Assembly (NCBI GenBank): GCA_900316165.1
Contig: ONBW01000009.1
Span: forward strand, 1-57,981
Origin: an uncultured Lachnospiraceae bacterium
Lineage (GTDB): Bacteria; Bacillota; Clostridia; Lachnospirales; Lachnospiraceae
Length of the DNA: 57,981 bases
Direction of reading: 5' to 3'
Shown: positions 9,552 to 51,756 of the stretch, in pieces
Layout of the letters: each line of letters begins with the position of its first letter
Numbering within the stretch: position 1 is the stretch's first letter
Position numbers and translations under genes: made by a program
Notes under the pieces: model-generated
The model's database searches: none
Told to the model about the DNA's origin: nothing
The model's input: only the letters and a program-made list of their open reading frames with translations

Positions 9552-10629
9552 AAAGACGGCGGTCCGCCTGACTGCAATTTTCTTAATTGTTTTTTCTTTA
9601 GCGGGAATCCTCATTCTCTGGACCAGGCAGGGTACAGGAGTTATGGCACGCCAGCGTGTTGCTGAAAAGAGCGGTTCGCTGATGGACTATCTGAAGGAGA
9701 CAGATCAGAAGACTGAGGCAGTGCAGAAGCTTCATTCACTCCGCCTGGTGCTGCCAGTTCGACACAGTGCTGATTCGATAAGTATTCGCAGTCAGAACCT
9801 GTTCACGGAGTACACGATCACAATCCCTGATATCACAGCCTCGTACTTCACGGAATATCCTGTATCTGGAAATGGTCAGGGCATAAATGACCTGACATAT
9901 GAGATGGACGGGGACAAGGGAGTGCTTACTCTTACAACGAACCAGTCACTTTTCCTCGAGGAGTCCGTATCCGGTTCCTATGTGTTCTTTGATTTCAAGG
10001 ACATAAGAGACTACTTCGACAAGGTTGTGGTAATCGATGCCGGACATGGCGGAAACGACAATGGCTGTATGGCCGACGGAGTATATGAGAAGGATCTGAC
10101 GCTTGAAATAGTAAAAAAATTTAAGCAGTTGACTGATCAAAATGCCGTTACAGAAGTTAAAGAATATGGAAATACTTTAACGTCAATGCAGATAGCCGGA
10201 GTTGGGAAGGTTGGATTTTTCTACACCAGACTTTCGGATAAAAAAGTATACCTGCGGCCTAGAAGAGAGATGGCAGAAAAGCTCGGAGCCGACCTGTTCT
10301 TATCCGTCCATATCAATTCGACATCTTCTGGAAGAGAGTCATCGATAAACGGAGGCCAGGTACTCTACAAGGCATCTGATAAGACAGGTGAGTCGAAGAA
10401 GTTTGCTGATATCGTTATGAATCAGATGGCTGAAAAGCTTGGCTGCCGAAAGAGAGGTGCTATCGCCGGAGATAATATCTATATCGTGCGTACTGCGAAA
10501 ATGCCGGTAGCTCTTGCGGAGATTGGCTTTATCACGAATAAGACTGAGAGAGAAAAGCTTTTATCAGATGATTATCAGGAGAAGACTGCACAGGCACTTC
10601 TTGATGCTATTACTGAATATTTGGGATAA
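9538..10629 (+). CDS. N-acetylmuramoyl-L-alanine amidase (Amidase_3)
   Basis: A 363-residue cell-wall hydrolase cutting the lactyl-amide bond of peptidoglycan. A single N-terminal membrane or signal segment (about residues 9-27) exports it. The C-terminal Amidase_3 domain starts at VVVIDAGHGGNDNG; zinc ligands and catalytic residues are visible as the His of AGHGG, the Glu of YEKDLTLEI, the His of LSVHINS and the Glu of ALAEIGFITN. Residues about 50-160 form an extra beta-rich domain of the AMIN type. The start has GGGAGAG upstream and overlaps the methyltransferase gene. Confidence 0.9.
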   Translation: MGRTEKTAVRLTAIFLIVFSLAGILILWTRQGTGVMARQRVAEKSGSLMDYLKETDQKTEAVQKLHSLRLVLPVRHSADSISIRSQNLFTEYTITIPDITASYFTEYPVSGNGQGINDLTYEMDGDKGVLTLTTNQSLFLEESVSGSYVFFDFKDIRDYFDKVVVIDAGHGGNDNGCMADGVYEKDLTLEIVKKFKQLTDQNAVTEVKEYGNTLTSMQIAGVGKVGFFYTRLSDKKVYLRPRREMAEKLGADLFLSVHINSTSSGRESSINGGQVLYKASDKTGESKKFADIVMNQMAEKLGCRKRGAIAGDNIYIVRTAKMPVALAEIGFITNKTEREKLLSDDYQEKTAQALLDAITEYLG

Positions 10630-20952: not shown

Positions 20953-20993
20953 TTTACGGACTGGAATAGAAAATCCTGTCTGAGTCCGTAAAT
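20952..20993. repeat. Palindrome related to the 39-bp repeat family
   Basis: ATTTACGGACT (20952-20962) and AGTCCGTAAAT (20983-20993) are perfect 11-bp inverted arms around a 20-base loop. The TCCGTAA end and A-rich loop resemble the units at 47753-48215, but spacing differs by about one base. It fills the gap between the glycosylase and crcB genes. Confidence 0.5.
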
Positions 20994-23215: not shown

Positions 23216-23692
23216 ATGGAAAAAATCACCAGTTTTACGATTAATCACCTGAAGCTTCTGCCGGGAGTGTATGTGTCGAGGAAGGACCACTACGGTGACG
23301 CGGTCATTACGACATTTGATCTCAGGATGACGGCGCCGAACAGAGAGCCGGTCATGAACACGGCTGAGGTGCATACTATTGAGCATCTCGGGGCAACTTT
23401 TTTAAGGAACCACAAGGAGTTTGGTGACAAGACTGTTTACTTCGGGCCAATGGGCTGCAGGACTGGATTCTACATGCTTCTCGCCGGTGACTATGACTCA
23501 AAGGACGTGCTGCCGCTCGTTATAGAGATGTTTGAATTCATCAGGGATTTTGAGGGCGACATTCCGGGCGCTGCGCCAAGAGACTGCGGAAACTATCTGG
23601 ATCAGAACCTGGGAATGGCTCATTTCCTGGCAAAGAAATACCTAGAGGTGCTTAATAACGCGACAGAGGAGAACCTGGTATATCCGGAATAA
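23216..23692 (+). CDS. luxS: S-ribosylhomocysteine lyase LuxS
   Basis: A 158-residue metalloenzyme splitting S-ribosylhomocysteine into homocysteine and DPD, the precursor of autoinducer-2. The metal site H53-x-x-E56-H57 (HTIEH) and C124 are present, along with the conserved FGPMGCRTGFY. GGAGGAAA precedes the ATG. The next gene, mtnN, supplies its substrate, so the pair forms the activated-methyl-cycle recycling route. A lone 39-bp inverted repeat of the array family lies between the two. Confidence 0.97.
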   Translation: MEKITSFTINHLKLLPGVYVSRKDHYGDAVITTFDLRMTAPNREPVMNTAEVHTIEHLGATFLRNHKEFGDKTVYFGPMGCRTGFYMLLAGDYDSKDVLPLVIEMFEFIRDFEGDIPGAAPRDCGNYLDQNLGMAHFLAKKYLEVLNNATEENLVYPE

Positions 23693-40391: not shown

Positions 40392-40448
40392 CATACTCAC
40401 CCTGGGAAGTGGCCTGGCTTTTCAATATTTCGCCCATCCGGCTCTCAA

Positions 40449-40580
40449 AGATACAAACCACTGGATGGAGTTGCAATAATTCGCCCATCCGGTTGATAAA
40501 GATACAAATCACTATTTGGAGTTGCAATATACAAAGGGAAATTTTCAATAAGATACAAACGCTGACTCCCAGTTGCAATA
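40449..40580. repeat. Three-copy 30-bp repeat at 51-bp period
   Basis: Units at 40449-40478, 40500-40529 and 40551-40580, each starting AGATACAAA and ending GTTGCAATA, exactly 51 bp apart. The spacers also share TTCGCCCATCCGG. A degenerate fourth unit may end at 40427 (TTCAATA), again one period upstream. It lies between the metY terminator and the 53-bp array. Confidence 0.85.
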
Positions 40581-40717: not shown

Positions 40718-41180
40718 TTACATACAGAAAAGAGATGAAGTCAAATCTGTATGTAAAGAAATCTGGAAGATTACATACAGAAAGGCAAACAAGTCTAATC
40801 TGTATGTAAAGCGAGCTTGGAAATGACATACAGAAAAGCAAGCAAGTCAAATATGTATGTAAAGACGGCTGGAAAATGACATACAGAAAGGCAAACAAGT
40901 CAAATATGTATGTAGAGACGGCTGGAAAATGACATACAAAAGAGCAGCCAAGTCAAATCTGTATGTTAAGCGAGCAGGAAAATGACATACAGAAGAGCAA
41001 GCAAGTCAAATATGTATGTAAAGACGGCTGGAAAATTACATACAGAAAGGCAAACAAGTCAAATATGTATGTAAAGACGGCTGGAAAATGACATACAGAA
41101 AAGCAATCAAGCTAAATCTGTATGTAAAGAAATCTGGAAAATGACATACAGAAAAGCAAACAAGTCAAATCTGTATGTAA
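40718..41180. repeat. Palindromic repeat array 1: nine 39-bp units at 53-bp period
   Basis: Units begin at 40718, 40771, 40824, 40877, 40930, 40983, 41036, 41089 and 41142, each 39 bp: arm TTACATACAGA (or TGACATACAGA), 17-bp A-rich loop, arm TCTGTATGTAA. Spacers are all 14 bp and fall into three classes (agaaatctgg, agcgagc, agacggctgg) in the order A-B-C-C-B-C-C-A, so they too are duplicated. The array ends 40 bp before the MATE gene. Minus-strand frames here are read-through of the repeat. Confidence 0.95.
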
Positions 41181-46776: not shown

Positions 46777-46807
46777 GCAGTGGGATTTTGTCTCCCACTG
46801 CTTTTTT
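46777..46807 (+). terminator. Terminator directly before the 46815 gene
   Basis: GCAGTGGGA (46777-46785) pairs perfectly with TCCCACTGC (46793-46801), then six T residues. The next start codon is seven bases further. A purine run AGAAGGGG (46767-46774) lies before the hairpin; nothing ribosome-site-like lies after it. Confidence 0.88.
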
Positions 46808-46814
46808 ATTATCT

Positions 46815-47750
46815 ATGAGAGATATTTCTTTAGTGATTATGGCAGCCGGCATCGGTTCACGCTTCGGCGGCGGGATCAAGCAACTGGCTTCTGTCGGTGA
46901 GGATGGGAGCATTATCATGGACTACTCAGTCCATGATGCCATCGAGGCTGGATTCGATGAAATCATCTTTATCATCAGGGATGAGATAGAGAAGGATTTC
47001 ATGGACATCATCGGGCACCGTATCGAGAAGGCAGCTTCCGCGCGAAATGTCCGTGTATACTATGTGAATCAGTCGCTTACGATTCTGCCGAAGGGTTTTA
47101 CTCTGCCAGCTGGCCGTACAAAACCGTGGGGAACCGGAAAGGCAGTGCTTTCAGCATCAACGCTTCTTGATAAGCCATTTGCTGTAATAAATGCCGATGA
47201 CTACTATGGCAAAGAGGCTTTCGTTCAGATGGCTGATTTCCTTAAGAATACTCCGGAGGATTCAAGAGACCACTACTGCATGGCAGGCTTCCTTTTGAAA
47301 AATACCTTAAGTGATTTTGGCTCAGTTACCCGTGGAATCTGTCGTGCCACAGATGACGGCTTCCTTTCTGGAATCGAGGAGACTCACGATGTAAAGAAGC
47401 TCCCAGGCGGAAAGGCCGCTGGCGAATTCGGAGAAGTCGATGTGAATTCACTTGTCTCGATGAATATGTGGGGATTTACACCAGACTTCGTTTCAAAGCT
47501 TTCAGATGGTTTTGTCGAATTCCTCGATAAAGTCTTAAATCGTGGCGAGGGAGACCCGATGAAGGCTGAGTATCTGCTTCCGAACTTTGTCGAAGAGCTG
47601 CTTCAGAAAAATGAAGTAGATGTAAAAGTCCTTCCGTCAAAGGATACCTGGTATGGCCTGACTTATAAGGAGGACATCCCAGCAGTTCGGGAGGCATTTA
47701 AGAGAATGGTGTCCTCTGGGGTTTACGCTAGTCCGTTATTTGGAGACTGA
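46815..47750 (+). CDS. Nucleotidyltransferase (NDP-sugar pyrophosphorylase-like)
   Basis: A 311-residue protein of the nucleotidyl transferase superfamily. The nucleotide loop is VIMAAGIGSRFGG; KPWGTGKAVLSAS and VINADDYYGKEAF hold the sugar- and metal-binding residues. It probably transfers a nucleotide to a sugar phosphate or similar, but the exact substrate is unknown. The frame reaches 46788 inside the terminator, but the ATG at 46815 begins the conserved domain. It ends two bases before repeat array 2. Confidence 0.82.
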   Translation: MRDISLVIMAAGIGSRFGGGIKQLASVGEDGSIIMDYSVHDAIEAGFDEIIFIIRDEIEKDFMDIIGHRIEKAASARNVRVYYVNQSLTILPKGFTLPAGRTKPWGTGKAVLSASTLLDKPFAVINADDYYGKEAFVQMADFLKNTPEDSRDHYCMAGFLLKNTLSDFGSVTRGICRATDDGFLSGIEETHDVKKLPGGKAAGEFGEVDVNSLVSMNMWGFTPDFVSKLSDGFVEFLDKVLNRGEGDPMKAEYLLPNFVEELLQKNEVDVKVLPSKDTWYGLTYKEDIPAVREAFKRMVSSGVYASPLFGD

Positions 47751-47752
47751 TA

Positions 47753-48215
47753 TAACGTACAGAAATAAGAAAAGCTGGAATCTGTCCGTAAGATTCTGAG
47801 CGTTGTTACATACAGAAATAAGAAAAGCTGAGATCTGTCCGTAAAAATCTGAGCGTTGTTACGTACAGAAATAAGAAATGTTGAAATCTGTCCGTAAAAA
47901 CGTCAAAGAAATTACGTACAGAAATGAGATTTGATGGAATCTGTCCGTAAGAATTTCTGTCAGTTGACATACAGAAATGAGATTTAATGGATTCTGTATG
48001 TAAGAATTCCTGTCAGTTGACATACAGAAATAAGAAAAGCTGGAATCTGTCTGTAATAACGGCAAAGAAATTACATACAGAAATGAGAGATACTGGAATC
48101 TGTCTGTAATAATGGCAAAGAAATTACATACATAAATGAAAAATACTGGAATCTGTCTGTAATAACGGCACAAAACTTACGTACAGAAATTAGAAAAACA
48201 AAATTCTGTCCGTAA
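47753..48215. repeat. Palindromic repeat array 2: nine 39-bp units at 53-bp period
   Basis: Units begin at 47753, 47806, 47859, 47912, 47965, 48018, 48071, 48124 and 48177, each 39 bp with 14-bp spacers. Consensus arms: TTACRTACAGA and TCTGTCYGTAA. Arm position 5 is G in units 1, 3, 4 and 9, where the partner is C, and A in units 5-8, where the partner is T; unit 2 is an A/C exception. Most copies share a fixed T-C mismatch at arm position 6. It fills the gap between two convergent genes. Confidence 0.95.
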
Positions 48216-48231: not shown

Positions 48232-48888
48232 TTATTTAATAAGACAAATGATATCCGAGAGGCTCTTTGCTGTAGCATAGAGTCTCTTTTTTAGTTCAAA
48301 ATCTGGTTCTGTCAGATCTGGCACCATTATAGTGTCAATGCCTGCATTGATTGCTGACATGCAGCCGTTTGGGGAGTCTTCTACAGCAAGACATTCGGAA
48401 GGTGCGAGGCCCAGTCGGTCAGCAGCAAGCAGATATGGATCTGGATAAGGCTTACCACGCTTAGCCTCGTGAGCGCTTATTACATCATCGAAGTGCTCGT
48501 ATAGTCCTGCATTCTTCAGCCTCCCTGTTGCAGCTACAAGATTTGTAGCAGTAACTACAACTGCCTTTATTCCAGACCTATGGCAGTAGTCGAGGATTTC
48601 CATAATACCCGGCTTCAGAGGCACAGGATTATCCTGCAGATATTTCATGACAGAGTCAGCAACAGCGGTGTGAAGCTCATCGTAATCGACAGCGTCCCCG
48701 TGTCTGTCCTGTAACAGCTTCTTGGAATCATCGCGGTTTAATGATCTTAAGTCTAGAGAATCCTGGTAAGTGAATTCGTTCATCCCGAGATCCTTTGCAC
48801 ATTGATTCCAATAGATATTATAGATTCTCTCAGTATCTGTAATCGTGCCGTCCATATCGAACAGAACGGCCTTCCAGTTTTTCTTCAT
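48232..48888 (-). CDS. HAD-superfamily phosphatase/phosphomutase (beta-phosphoglucomutase-like)
   Basis: A 218-residue HAD hydrolase. Motif I is LFDMDGTITDTE, motif II VVTATN, motif III the Lys in AHEAKRGKPYPDPYL, motif IV AVEDSPNGCMSA. The helical cap after motif I and the KPxPDxYL motif place it with beta-phosphoglucomutase and sugar-phosphate phosphatases (GPH/PGMB type). Substrate unknown. TTTGGAG precedes the ATG. Its stop is 16 bp from repeat array 2 and an IS element lies upstream. Confidence 0.87.
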   Translation of the reverse strand: MKKNWKAVLFDMDGTITDTERIYNIYWNQCAKDLGMNEFTYQDSLDLRSLNRDDSKKLLQDRHGDAVDYDELHTAVADSVMKYLQDNPVPLKPGIMEILDYCHRSGIKAVVVTATNLVAATGRLKNAGLYEHFDDVISAHEAKRGKPYPDPYLLAADRLGLAPSECLAVEDSPNGCMSAINAGIDTIMVPDLTEPDFELKKRLYATAKSLSDIICLIK

Positions 48889-48959
48889 AAAAACTCCAAA
48901 TGATAATTTTTTTAGTTTCGTTGCACTATTCTGACTACTCCTCGGGGCAAGCCCCGAGG

Positions 48960-49145
48960 GTTCCTCTGACTGTGGTGTTCTAGGATCGTTCGCTTACGCG
49001 AGGGAACATAGATGATGCACAGGAGCAGCAACACTTTACCTTCGCACATACCCTTACAGGCTGCCTTGCGGGACAACTCCCACGTTGACGAAGAGATTTT
49101 TGTACCGATGGGTACAGGGAAGCGCAGTCGGTCTCCCTGTTATAT
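48960..49145 (-). ncRNA. Omega-RNA-like 3' tail of the IS element
   Basis: The non-coding stretch between the transposase stop and the right-end hairpin reads on the minus strand with several stems (for example CTCGCGTAAGCGA, and GGGAGTTGTCCC) and ends GAGGAACCC-hairpin-GAGTAGTCA. From memory, this resembles the 3' tails of TnpB-bearing IS605 elements, where the omega RNA lies. No TnpB frame is present, so it would be an orphan scaffold. Confidence 0.35.
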
Positions 49146-49242
49146 TATCAAAGTTATTTATCAGGCTATCTTTATACCACTGTTTAATATCTTTATCTTA
49201 TTATCCTTTATCCACGCCATAAGTTCTTTTTCTTTCTGATAT

Positions 49243-49692
49243 TCAGTTTTTGGCTTTCTTTTCATTTTCGTCATGGGCTTTCTGTTCCGCTATATACTTT
49301 TTGACAGTCTCCTCGCTGATATGCCCCACCGTTGAGACAAAGTATCCGGATGACCATAGTACTCCGCATCTGGCATAGAACCTTTTGAGCTGTGGATATG
49401 CTCTGAACAGTTCTATTGCACTCCAGCTCTTTAAAGTCCGGGCTATATCGCAAGGAGCGACAGTCTGCGGACAGTCTACAAAGATATGGATATGATCCGG
49501 CATGACTTCCAGTGCTTTTATTGAGTATCCATACCTGGTACATATATCAGCGAGGATCTTTTTAAGTGTCACATCTACGCCGTCCTTTAATACCGAGAAT
49601 CTGAACTTAGGGCACCAGATGATATGATACTGTGTAAGGTACCTGCAGTGTGATGCATGGTGGTACTGCTCGTTATTCCTGTCCATCATCAT
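49243..49692 (-). CDS. tnpA: IS200/IS605 transposase TnpA (Y1/HUH)
   Basis: A 149-residue single-strand transposase. The HUH pair lies in VMPDHIHIFVD and the catalytic tyrosine in EETVKKYIAEQ near the C-terminus; CRYLTQYHIIWCPKFR is the family N-terminus. Length is normal and the frame is intact, so it may be active. Its start overlaps the end of the upstream ribbon-helix-helix gene by 20 bases and has no good ribosome site, so translation may be coupled. Confidence 0.93.
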   Translation of the reverse strand: MMMDRNNEQYHHASHCRYLTQYHIIWCPKFRFSVLKDGVDVTLKKILADICTRYGYSIKALEVMPDHIHIFVDCPQTVAPCDIARTLKSWSAIELFRAYPQLKRFYARCGVLWSSGYFVSTVGHISEETVKKYIAEQKAHDENEKKAKN

Positions 49693-49864
49693 TACCGTCT
49701 GTGAGCTGATACTTTTCCTTTATGCCTCTTCTCATCAGATCAAGGAATGTTACTGTACGCCCTTCATCTACCGAATAGATACGTGCCAGGTTTTCCAGTT
49801 GGTCTTTCCACACAGTGGGTATTGTTATGTTTATCTGTGTATTTCCTTTTTTTGACTGTGCCAT
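49673..49864 (-). CDS. Ribbon-helix-helix-like small protein within the IS element
   Basis: A 63-residue protein. A short strand (TQINITIPTVW) followed by two helices (DQLENLARIYSV, TFLDLMRRGIKEK) fits a ribbon-helix-helix DNA-binding fold as in CopG/MetJ. A GAGAGG ribosome site precedes its ATG. It overlaps tnpA, so the two proteins would be made together. It may repress or guide transposition; that is inference. Such a gene is not part of the classical IS200 layout. Confidence 0.6.
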   Translation of the reverse strand: MAQSKKGNTQINITIPTVWKDQLENLARIYSVDEGRTVTFLDLMRRGIKEKYQLTDGNDDGQE

Positions 49865-50103
49865 GTGATACCTCTCTTGTCACCACTTTATTATCATATA
49901 TTATATATTTTTTCTATGAAAACATCAAGAGCTGTGCATCAAATTGAAGGTGGCTTCATCCCCGAGGTTTGCCTCGGGGGGTTCACCTTTGTGTAAGTTA
50001 AAGTTTATTTTATAACAGATTTTGATCGAACGTACACATTTTTCTCCAAATCTGATAAAATAAAAAGAATAAGGCTAACACAATCTATAAAAGGAGTAAA
50101 CAG

Positions 50104-51756
50104 GTGAGAAAAAGATTTGTAAATTCAATCATAGCAGCAGCGCTGGTCTGCGCGTGTCTCGTCACTGGCTGCGCAGGCGGCAATACTTCAGGCAGTGCCG
50201 GGAAGGCATCAAATGTCTCTTACATGGAGAGCATCAACGGGAAGTTGAAGGAAAATGTGCCGGACGATAAGTATCGGACGACTTACGAGATTTTTGTCGG
50301 GTCGTTCTATGATTCAAACGGTGACGGAATCGGTGACCTGAAGGGAGTCGAGGAGAAACTCGACTATATAAAGGGAATGGGCTTCAACCAGATCTGGCTT
50401 ATGCCGATATGTCCATCACCGTCATATCACAAGTACGATGTGACTGACTACATGTCGATAGATCCTGATTATGGCACAATGGAGGACTTCGAGAGCCTTG
50501 TGGCAGCCTGCCATAAGGACGGAATAAAGATAATAACAGATTTGGTCTTAAACCACACTTCAACCCAGCATCCATGGTTCCAGAAGGCAAAGGAGTACCT
50601 GAAAAACCTGAAGGACGGCGAGAAGCCGGATGTGAAGAAGTGCCCGTATGTGAACTACTATAATTTCACCCGCGAGGAGGGTGAGAGCGGATATTCCCAG
50701 CTGGCTGGCAGCATGTGGTACTATGAGGCGCAGTTCTGGGAAGGTATGCCAGACCTGAACCTCGATAACAAGGCGGTCAGGGATGAGATTAAAAAAATAA
50801 CCGATTTCTGGCTCGATGAGGGCGTAGACGGCTTCAGACTAGATGCCACCACCAGCTACTACACCGGAAATGAGGAGAAGAATATCGAATTCCTGAAGTG
50901 GCTCAACGATGAGGTAAAGGCAAAGAATCCAGACGCCTATATGGTAGGTGAGTGCTGGACAGACCTTGCTACTTATAGCAGATATTACAAGAGTGGAGTA
51001 GACAGCTTTTTCGACTTTGACTTTGCAAACACCGATGGAGTCATAAAAAAGACAGTAAACGGTGAAACTACAGCAAAGGGCTATGGAGAGGAGATGGTCA
51101 CAGCTCAGGATAAGATCTCTGAGAACTCAGATGGCAAAGGTATCGAAGCACCATTCTATACAAATCACGACCTGGCACGTTCAGCTGGATATTATCCAGG
51201 AGATGACGGCTCGAAGACAAAGTTTGCCGAAGGCCTGAATCTGATGATGAGCGGCTGCGCCTTTGTCTACTATGGCGAAGAAATCGGAATGAAGGGCAGT
51301 GGCAGTGATGAAAACAAACGAGCACCGATGTACTGGACCTCAGACAGCACAGCAAAAGGCATGACCAAGGGCCCAAAGGATATGGACCTCTTTGATATGA
51401 AGTACGATCCGGAAGACAAGCAGGTAAAGTCTGACAGCTCAATCTTAAGCTACGTAAAGCAGGCCATTAAGCTCCGTAATTCCTTCCCGGCTATAGCACG
51501 CGGAACTATTACACTTGATGAGAACGCATCAGGAGATAACATCCTCGTAATCACAAAGACACCATCAGACTCATTATACGATCCGGTAGTTTTAGTCTAT
51601 AACACCGGAGAAAAGTCAGCAACACTGAAGAAGTCGAATCTCCCAGATGGATTTACAAAGCTTTCTGGGGTACTTACAGTGGATAAGAATAAGATCACAG
51701 AGAAGGACGGCACGATCACAATGCCAAAGGAGAGTATAGCAGTTTATACCAAATAA
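50104..51756 (+). CDS. Alpha-amylase family (GH13) lipoprotein
   Basis: A 550-residue secreted glycoside hydrolase. The signal peptide ends in the lipobox LVTGC, so it is lipid-anchored outside the membrane. The (beta/alpha)8 barrel has the four GH13 regions: LVLNHTSTQHPW, GFRLDATT with the nucleophile Asp, MVGECW with the acid Glu, and FYTNHDLAR with the third carboxylate. It may act on starch or maltodextrins, feeding glgP. The start is GTG with AAAGGAG upstream. A 16-bp perfect terminator follows. It lies next to an IS element. Confidence 0.92.
   Translation: MRKRFVNSIIAAALVCACLVTGCAGGNTSGSAGKASNVSYMESINGKLKENVPDDKYRTTYEIFVGSFYDSNGDGIGDLKGVEEKLDYIKGMGFNQIWLMPICPSPSYHKYDVTDYMSIDPDYGTMEDFESLVAACHKDGIKIITDLVLNHTSTQHPWFQKAKEYLKNLKDGEKPDVKKCPYVNYYNFTREEGESGYSQLAGSMWYYEAQFWEGMPDLNLDNKAVRDEIKKITDFWLDEGVDGFRLDATTSYYTGNEEKNIEFLKWLNDEVKAKNPDAYMVGECWTDLATYSRYYKSGVDSFFDFDFANTDGVIKKTVNGETTAKGYGEEMVTAQDKISENSDGKGIEAPFYTNHDLARSAGYYPGDDGSKTKFAEGLNLMMSGCAFVYYGEEIGMKGSGSDENKRAPMYWTSDSTAKGMTKGPKDMDLFDMKYDPEDKQVKSDSSILSYVKQAIKLRNSFPAIARGTITLDENASGDNILVITKTPSDSLYDPVVLVYNTGEKSATLKKSNLPDGFTKLSGVLTVDKNKITEKDGTITMPKESIAVYTK

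Follow-up and report, generated by a model that had tools for sequence, protein, structure and literature searches.

A family of short palindromic repeats, arranged in head-to-tail arrays of inverted half-sites, was identified in the genome of an uncultured Lachnospiraceae bacterium. With a probability of roughly 60%, we read these arrays as binding sites of a putative dimeric protein that recognizes double-stranded DNA. The window, the whole 57,981-nt stretch of DNA that was analysed, contains two of them. Interspersed repeats in bacteria are usually explained as REPs driven by Y1 transposases or as RNA hairpins. This family is apparently neither, given its geometry of about five helical turns, its independent arms, its occurrence in two genera and its near absence from 11 genus members examined. 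Among the literature matches listed, no prior description of such arrays was found. The features of the window are as follows:

20954..20991, strand not given: single unit of 38 bp belonging to the second subtype, TTACGGACT ... AGTCCGTAA
23703..23741, + strand: solitary 39-bp unit, 10 bp past the end of the ORF at 23216-23692
40718..41180, + strand: array 1, upstream of a MatE gene and made up of nine 39-bp units with a period of 53 bp
46788..47750, + strand: left neighbour of array 2, nucleotidyltransferase-like gene matching Pfam NTP_transferase, in convergent orientation, with synteny seen in sister species
47753..48215, + strand: array 2, units made of an 11-bp half-site, a 17-bp centre and an inverted 11-bp half-site, with 14-bp linkers and a period of 53 bp
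48232..48888, - strand: right neighbour of array 2, HAD-family hydrolase, convergent, in four sister genomes beside the left neighbour with no array in between
49243..49692, - strand: IS200-like Y1 transposase gene, 1 kb from array 2

Array 2 is built, as the sequence-only reading had proposed, of nine 39-bp units (starting at 47753, 47806, 47859, 47912, 47965, 48018, 48071, 48124 and 48177), with every unit-to-unit step exactly 53 bp. Its claims that array 1 shares this design and that array 2 occupies the gap between two convergent genes were borne out as well. The array begins 2 bp past the stop of the plus-strand gene and ends 16 bp short of the minus-strand gene. Tandem Repeats Finder detected an additional 159-bp, three-unit period in both arrays. 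In array 2, the linkers are near-identical in units 1-2, 4-5 and 6-7, which together with the 159-bp period indicates that blocks of it were probably copied. A tandem repeat of different sequence, with a 51-bp period and about two copies, is located at 40423-40529, ~190 bp upstream of array 1.

Many more copies were recovered from the same genome (G000) by a covariance model of the 19 window units and then by a sequence model of 97 units. The 39-bp type is represented there by 89 units at 14 places (fixed register), which align without gaps. A stricter set, for which an arm filter was used and units were chained across linkers of at most 16 bp, holds 227 units at 39 places in the fetched loci of three genomes: 97 units at 20 places in G000, 68 at nine places in "Candidatus Weimeria bifida" LCO1 (G012) and 62 at 10 places in a member of another genus (G333). 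A solitary G012 unit (L051, 7910) and 39-type units of C22 (3/10) and C37 (2/13) lie outside this set. Two G333 arrays at contig ends (L125 and L126) may be a single array split by the assembly. The units fall into two subtypes, one of 39 bp with the half-site TTACRKACA and one of 38 bp with the half-site TTACGKACT, each with a 20-21-bp centre between the half-sites. The 38-bp subtype has a 52-bp period and is found mostly in G012 (by a looser pattern), but also in G000. The 39-bp units use the same alphabet in both arms (A/G at position 5, T/G at position 6 and G/T at position 10).

The spacing of the half-sites is rigid. All 152 inward pairs of exact half-sites (TTACNNAC/GTNNGTAA) found within 60 bp have an inner distance of 22 or 23 bp, and the 126 outward pairs are separated by 14 bp (110), 13 bp (13) or other lengths (three). 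One mononucleotide shuffle per fetched locus, the loci having been picked for holding such units, yielded only three inward and two outward exact pairs within 60 bp. With one mismatch tolerated, the total number of inward pairs is near background (526 vs 462 in the shuffle), and at least 237 pairs are found at a distance of 22-23 bp vs at most 14 at any single distance in the shuffle. These counts presuppose no distance; the loci were discovered with patterns and models of limited loop length. Two of the three odd outward distances fall outside arrays. A 4-bp linker in G333 and a 26-bp linker were dropped as array irregularities, both being located outside arrays.

The period is equally constant. 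In the 227-unit set, 186 of the 188 in-array steps measure 52 or 53 bp, which is close to five turns of the helix, and the remaining two are 50 and 43 bp. The 43-bp step (L052) is the sole one that matches a one-turn (10-bp) shift; this idea does not account for the 50-bp step of L066. That step separates a mixed pair (L066 4671-4759), a 38-bp beside a 39-bp unit with a 12-bp linker. Neighbouring units have the same orientation in 177 of the 188 pairs and opposite orientations in seven, four being not called.

The distribution of the repeats is patchy. Among the genus members, the pattern was counted 52 times in G000 and 69 times in G012, and 0-2 times in the other 11, which is background level (0-3 in reversed-pattern controls). 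The name Candidatus Weimeria bifida for LCO1 is that given in PMC6974650. When 397 genomes of the family were searched with a two-unit pattern of 37-38-bp units, only G000, G012 and G333 matched. The last of these has 63 unit matches genome-wide vs five for the reversed control; they form long arrays of 52/53-bp period whose arms read TTACGTAC. A pattern of 38-39-bp units matched only G000 itself among 391 genomes of the class, a sample with just 15 other family members. Model R2, searched against the 397 genomes, did not recover G333, so single-subtype models understate the spread; with so few family members in the class sample, the true spread may be wider. Weaker, unconfirmed matches were also obtained: model R1 (E<=0.01, 61 genomes) gave one in G011, one in G025 and two in G038, those of G038, from another family, being 50 bp apart, and R2 (E<=0.001, 397 genomes) gave partial matches in G372 and G387. 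The stretches fetched as L053-L055 contain no 39-type unit by a motif scan. A scan of genome contigs, which may omit the window's own genome, matched the LCO1 record only. Array 2 had no blastn match in plasmid and phage collections, and four scans of viral contigs gave no matches, or one stretch each in two of them. None of these collections yielded an array, and a viral or plasmid origin was rejected; those single viral matches (L104 and L118) sit inside long ORFs without an array.

A comparison of array 2 between sister strains had been suggested by the sequence-only reading. It could be made between species, and the syntenic site is empty in four of them. The left gene was found in eight of 12 genus members. 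Measured between the ends of the tblastn matches, its gap to the HAD gene is 12 bp in G002, 13 bp in G007, 12 bp in G009 and 0 bp in G011. The corresponding values are 487 bp for the window and 929 bp for G012; in G001, G004 and G005 the fetched stretch does not include the HAD gene. Since the gap is nearly empty in the sisters, array 2 is probably a lineage-specific arrival or expansion. The 929 bp of G012 are other sequence, without exact half-sites. This stretch of ~930 bp at the position of array 2 (L077 2434-3362) carries two GAGTCCG-AGGACGAAG motifs, and a search of L077 against Rfam with gathering thresholds gave nothing there.

By ORF-based calls, most places lie between genes with few overlaps, and their setting is convergent in 12, tandem in 17, divergent in seven and unclassified in three of 39 cases. 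Transcription terminators were rejected as an explanation, as convergent, tandem and divergent settings all occur. Fifty proteins were scanned against Pfam, of which 37 are immediate neighbours according to the ORF calls; the scans reached 18 of the 39 places, all outside G333. The flanking genes are of diverse, ordinary kinds and encode transporters, hydrolases, a small heat-shock protein and regulators of three families (AraC, GntR and MarR, each beside one array). Next to one G012 array, ribosomal protein genes follow. Only MatE recurs among the immediate neighbours scanned, at two arrays of G000 (array 1 and L043 5220-5629), and a single gene family beside all arrays was therefore rejected. 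The latter array is the first of three within 6 kb of one contig (L043 5220-10800), made of three recurring unit types and showing in places a 159-bp higher-order repeat.

The main rival holds that the units are selfish palindromic repeats of the REP/BIME kind, with the arms as recognition sites of a mobilizing enzyme and no function for the host. The empty syntenic site in four sister species and the patchy occurrence described above are what such repeats would leave, as are the intergenic dispersal and the block-wise amplification, including the 159-bp higher-order period. The resemblance extends to the units themselves. Like REPs and BIMEs (e.g., BIME-2) of Enterobacteria, Pseudomonas and Stenotrophomonas, they are short intergenic, species-specific palindromes that number tens to hundreds in a genome and occur singly or clustered in tandem, and units of 38/39 bp in 97, 68 and 62 copies correspond to short extragenic multicopy palindromes. 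BIMEs are moreover bound by proteins, gyrase and IHF among them, according to PMC2817692.

Several hallmarks of these elements are missing, however. PMC3733652 describes REPs as tagged with GTAG or CGTC beyond the stem at one of their ends, whereas our units start with TTAC and end with GTAA, and no conserved adjoining tag was seen in the unit alignments inspected. REP clusters are described there and in PMC2817692 as alternating or head-head, with head-tail arrangements absent or under-represented; the present arrays are head-to-tail (177 vs 7), with 13-14-bp linkers and 17-21-bp centres. These linkers are rigid, unlike the variable inter-REP segments reported for Stenotrophomonas BIMEs in PMC2817692. 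Compensatory changes of the arms, as in REP/BIME stems, are also lacking at positions 5 and 6 (see below). The Y1 gene 1 kb from array 2 suggested dispersal by a Y1/RAYT transposase, and this was not supported. No exact half-sites are present in 48741-50200, so the gene is not flanked by units. Among the genus members scanned, PF01797 (Y1) has four matches in G000, none in the array-rich G012, and matches in six of the 11 array-poor members (G004, G005, G007, G008, G009 and G011), and does not appear to track the arrays there. As the tag, orientation and complementary changes of REPs are lacking and Y1 does not appear to track the arrays in these genomes, the family is somewhat BIME-like without being classed as BIME. 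A purely selfish origin appears unlikely, though it deserves serious consideration. Selfish dispersal and protein binding are compatible, and both can be true.

According to a second rival, the units are functionless tandem duplications, and their seeming constraint reflects recent copying. Some arrays have identical units and linkers, the 159-bp period points to copied blocks, and some G333 arrays have barely diverged in any part, with a small difference between arms and centres (e.g., 0.080 vs 0.086). Constant length is also left behind by tandem duplication, which counts against the binding reading. The divergence within arrays argues the other way. In 15 arrays of fixed register, without arm filter, the mean proportion of differing positions is 8.9% in the arms, 37.3% in the centres and 40.5% in the linkers, and the arms are lowest, below both other parts, in all 15. 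About 601 substitutions have accumulated in their loops and linkers at constant length (minimum spanning tree). This set has no irregular steps and does not extend to G333; it therefore contains neither L052 nor the G333 arrays in which steps of 52 and 53 bp are mixed. In the arm-filtered set, the arms are less diverged than the centres in all 25 arrays of at least four units; the filter biases this result, like the half-site pair and 227-unit analyses, towards conserved arms. Identical half-sites and lengths also recur in another genus. Purely neutral duplication is therefore very unlikely, and the combination of conserved half-sites, fixed spacing and free intervening sequence is that of an array of protein-binding sites.

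The last rival supposes transcribed arrays of RNA hairpins at gene ends, halting the polymerase or shielding the mRNA, with pairing under selection; it fits the convergent setting of array 2 and is already largely refuted by pairing tests on 97 and 227 units, which leave it quite improbable. The sequence-only reading had taken covariation at arm position 5 of array 2 as the mark of selected pairing. The pairs themselves are largely as described, G-C in units 1, 3, 4 and 9 and A-T in units 5-8, except that unit 2 has A against C; eight of the nine units pair. The T-C mismatch reported at position 6 of most units is present in eight of the nine, unit 5 having T-A. The association at position 5 is weak (Fisher p=0.048), and array 2 position 5 is one of two array-by-position permutation tests, out of 14, with p<0.05. 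For the first 19 units of the window, the result was suggestive, as the count of cells altered in both arms was attained in none of 500 shuffles. With 97 units, helix pairing is 78.1% vs 79.3% in the shuffles, 498 of 500 being at least as high.

The statistical test of covariation over units aligned genome-wide, which the same reading had proposed, was carried out on the 227 units at 39 places in three genomes by shuffling the right arms within each array, and the pattern of array 2 did not generalize. The two arms agree at position 5 in 152 units (permutation mean 151.5) and at position 6 in 161 (mean 160.7), so there is no excess, and the claim that covariation signals selected pairing has to be abandoned. 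Position 2 is slightly above expectation (186 vs 183.7; 32 of 2000 permutations as high), the sole one of nine positions under 5%. When G-U pairs are allowed, 1832 of 2043 cells are paired on the plus strand (mean 1828.2; 142 of 1000 permutations as high) and 1820 on the minus strand (mean 1819.3; 464 of 1000). At position 5, the 39-bp units of G000 most often oppose A to C (41 of 89), which is unpaired on the plus strand and would be a G-U pair on the other. Array 2 does fold strongly as RNA relative to shuffles (z -8.0 on the plus and -6.8 on the minus strand), as is expected of any inverted repeats. Against a transcribed hairpin stand also the loops of 17-21 nt, the divergent setting of seven of the 36 classified places, where an array is upstream of both genes, and the Rfam scan, which at the gathering threshold matched only a tRNA in the window and likewise only tRNA in L077, L052 and L069 together.

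It had been foreseen that the pairs of array 2 might simply be copied together in blocks. For pairing this largely holds. Both sides of position 5 change between units 4 and 5; between units 1 and 2, the position changes on one side only. A symmetric binding site, the other explanation given for the covariation, survives in another form: the arms share approximately one half-site alphabet at fixed spacing and vary independently of each other within arrays. The arms thus act mainly as two independently tolerated copies of a half-site, which is a signature of duplex recognition by a protein. Position 9 switches jointly in both arms between the subtypes (A/A in 83 and T/T in 102 of the 227 units), which could be explained by protein recognition or by pairing, and is expected if one protein reads both arms.

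In the protein-binding reading, a homodimeric (or paired) duplex-binding protein would contact both half-sites, about 30 bp apart, and may bend or wrap the A-tract centre. With units following one another head to tail every 52-53 bp, or five turns of the helix, all bound dimers would lie on one of its faces, so that neighbours could touch and form a regular nucleoprotein filament. Such a filament could serve as an architectural anchor or boundary. Copies would multiply as blocks are duplicated in tandem and as units disperse to intergenic sites not occupied before. The reading is favoured by the design common to G012 and another genus (G333); that inverted repeats can fold as RNA, and that a single step shows the 10-bp shift, weigh against it. 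It predicts, in a testable manner, an unrecognized DNA-binding protein with sequence specificity for inverted half-sites spaced by about 30 bp. For finding its gene, the carriers and array-poor genus members provide a natural presence/absence contrast.

Iterons, parS and matS also present one protein with duplex sites that are repeated or in phase with the helix. The present arrays differ from them in occurring at 39 fetched places in three genomes; to judge from the contigs, they are not confined to a single origin or domain of the chromosome. With CRISPRs, they have a regular period and palindromic units in common; their linkers, however, are 13-14 bp long and often interrelated within arrays instead of unique, the unit centres are variable and the ends constant, and there are many places per genome. 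A bolder and rather doubtful extension would be a hitherto unrecognized chromosome-wide architectural system of clostridia, in which a putative wrapping dimer forms short intergenic filaments on many helically phased 52-53-bp sites per genome, paralogues read the two half-site subtypes, and the whole system, common to different genera, comes and goes as one piece.

Close to the dyad, an A-rich tract is visible in three of the four unit groups, namely the 39-bp units of G000 and of G333 and the 38-bp units; it is less clear in the eight 39-bp units of G012. In G333, one array (L105 10380-10881) starts directly after a tRNA-Glu gene (10380-10451), its incomplete first unit merging into terminator-like sequence and its first whole unit starting at 10526. 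The common unit centre of G333 with AATCAAGAATTTA (L105, L119-L124) fits the IHF consensus, WATCAANNNNTTR.
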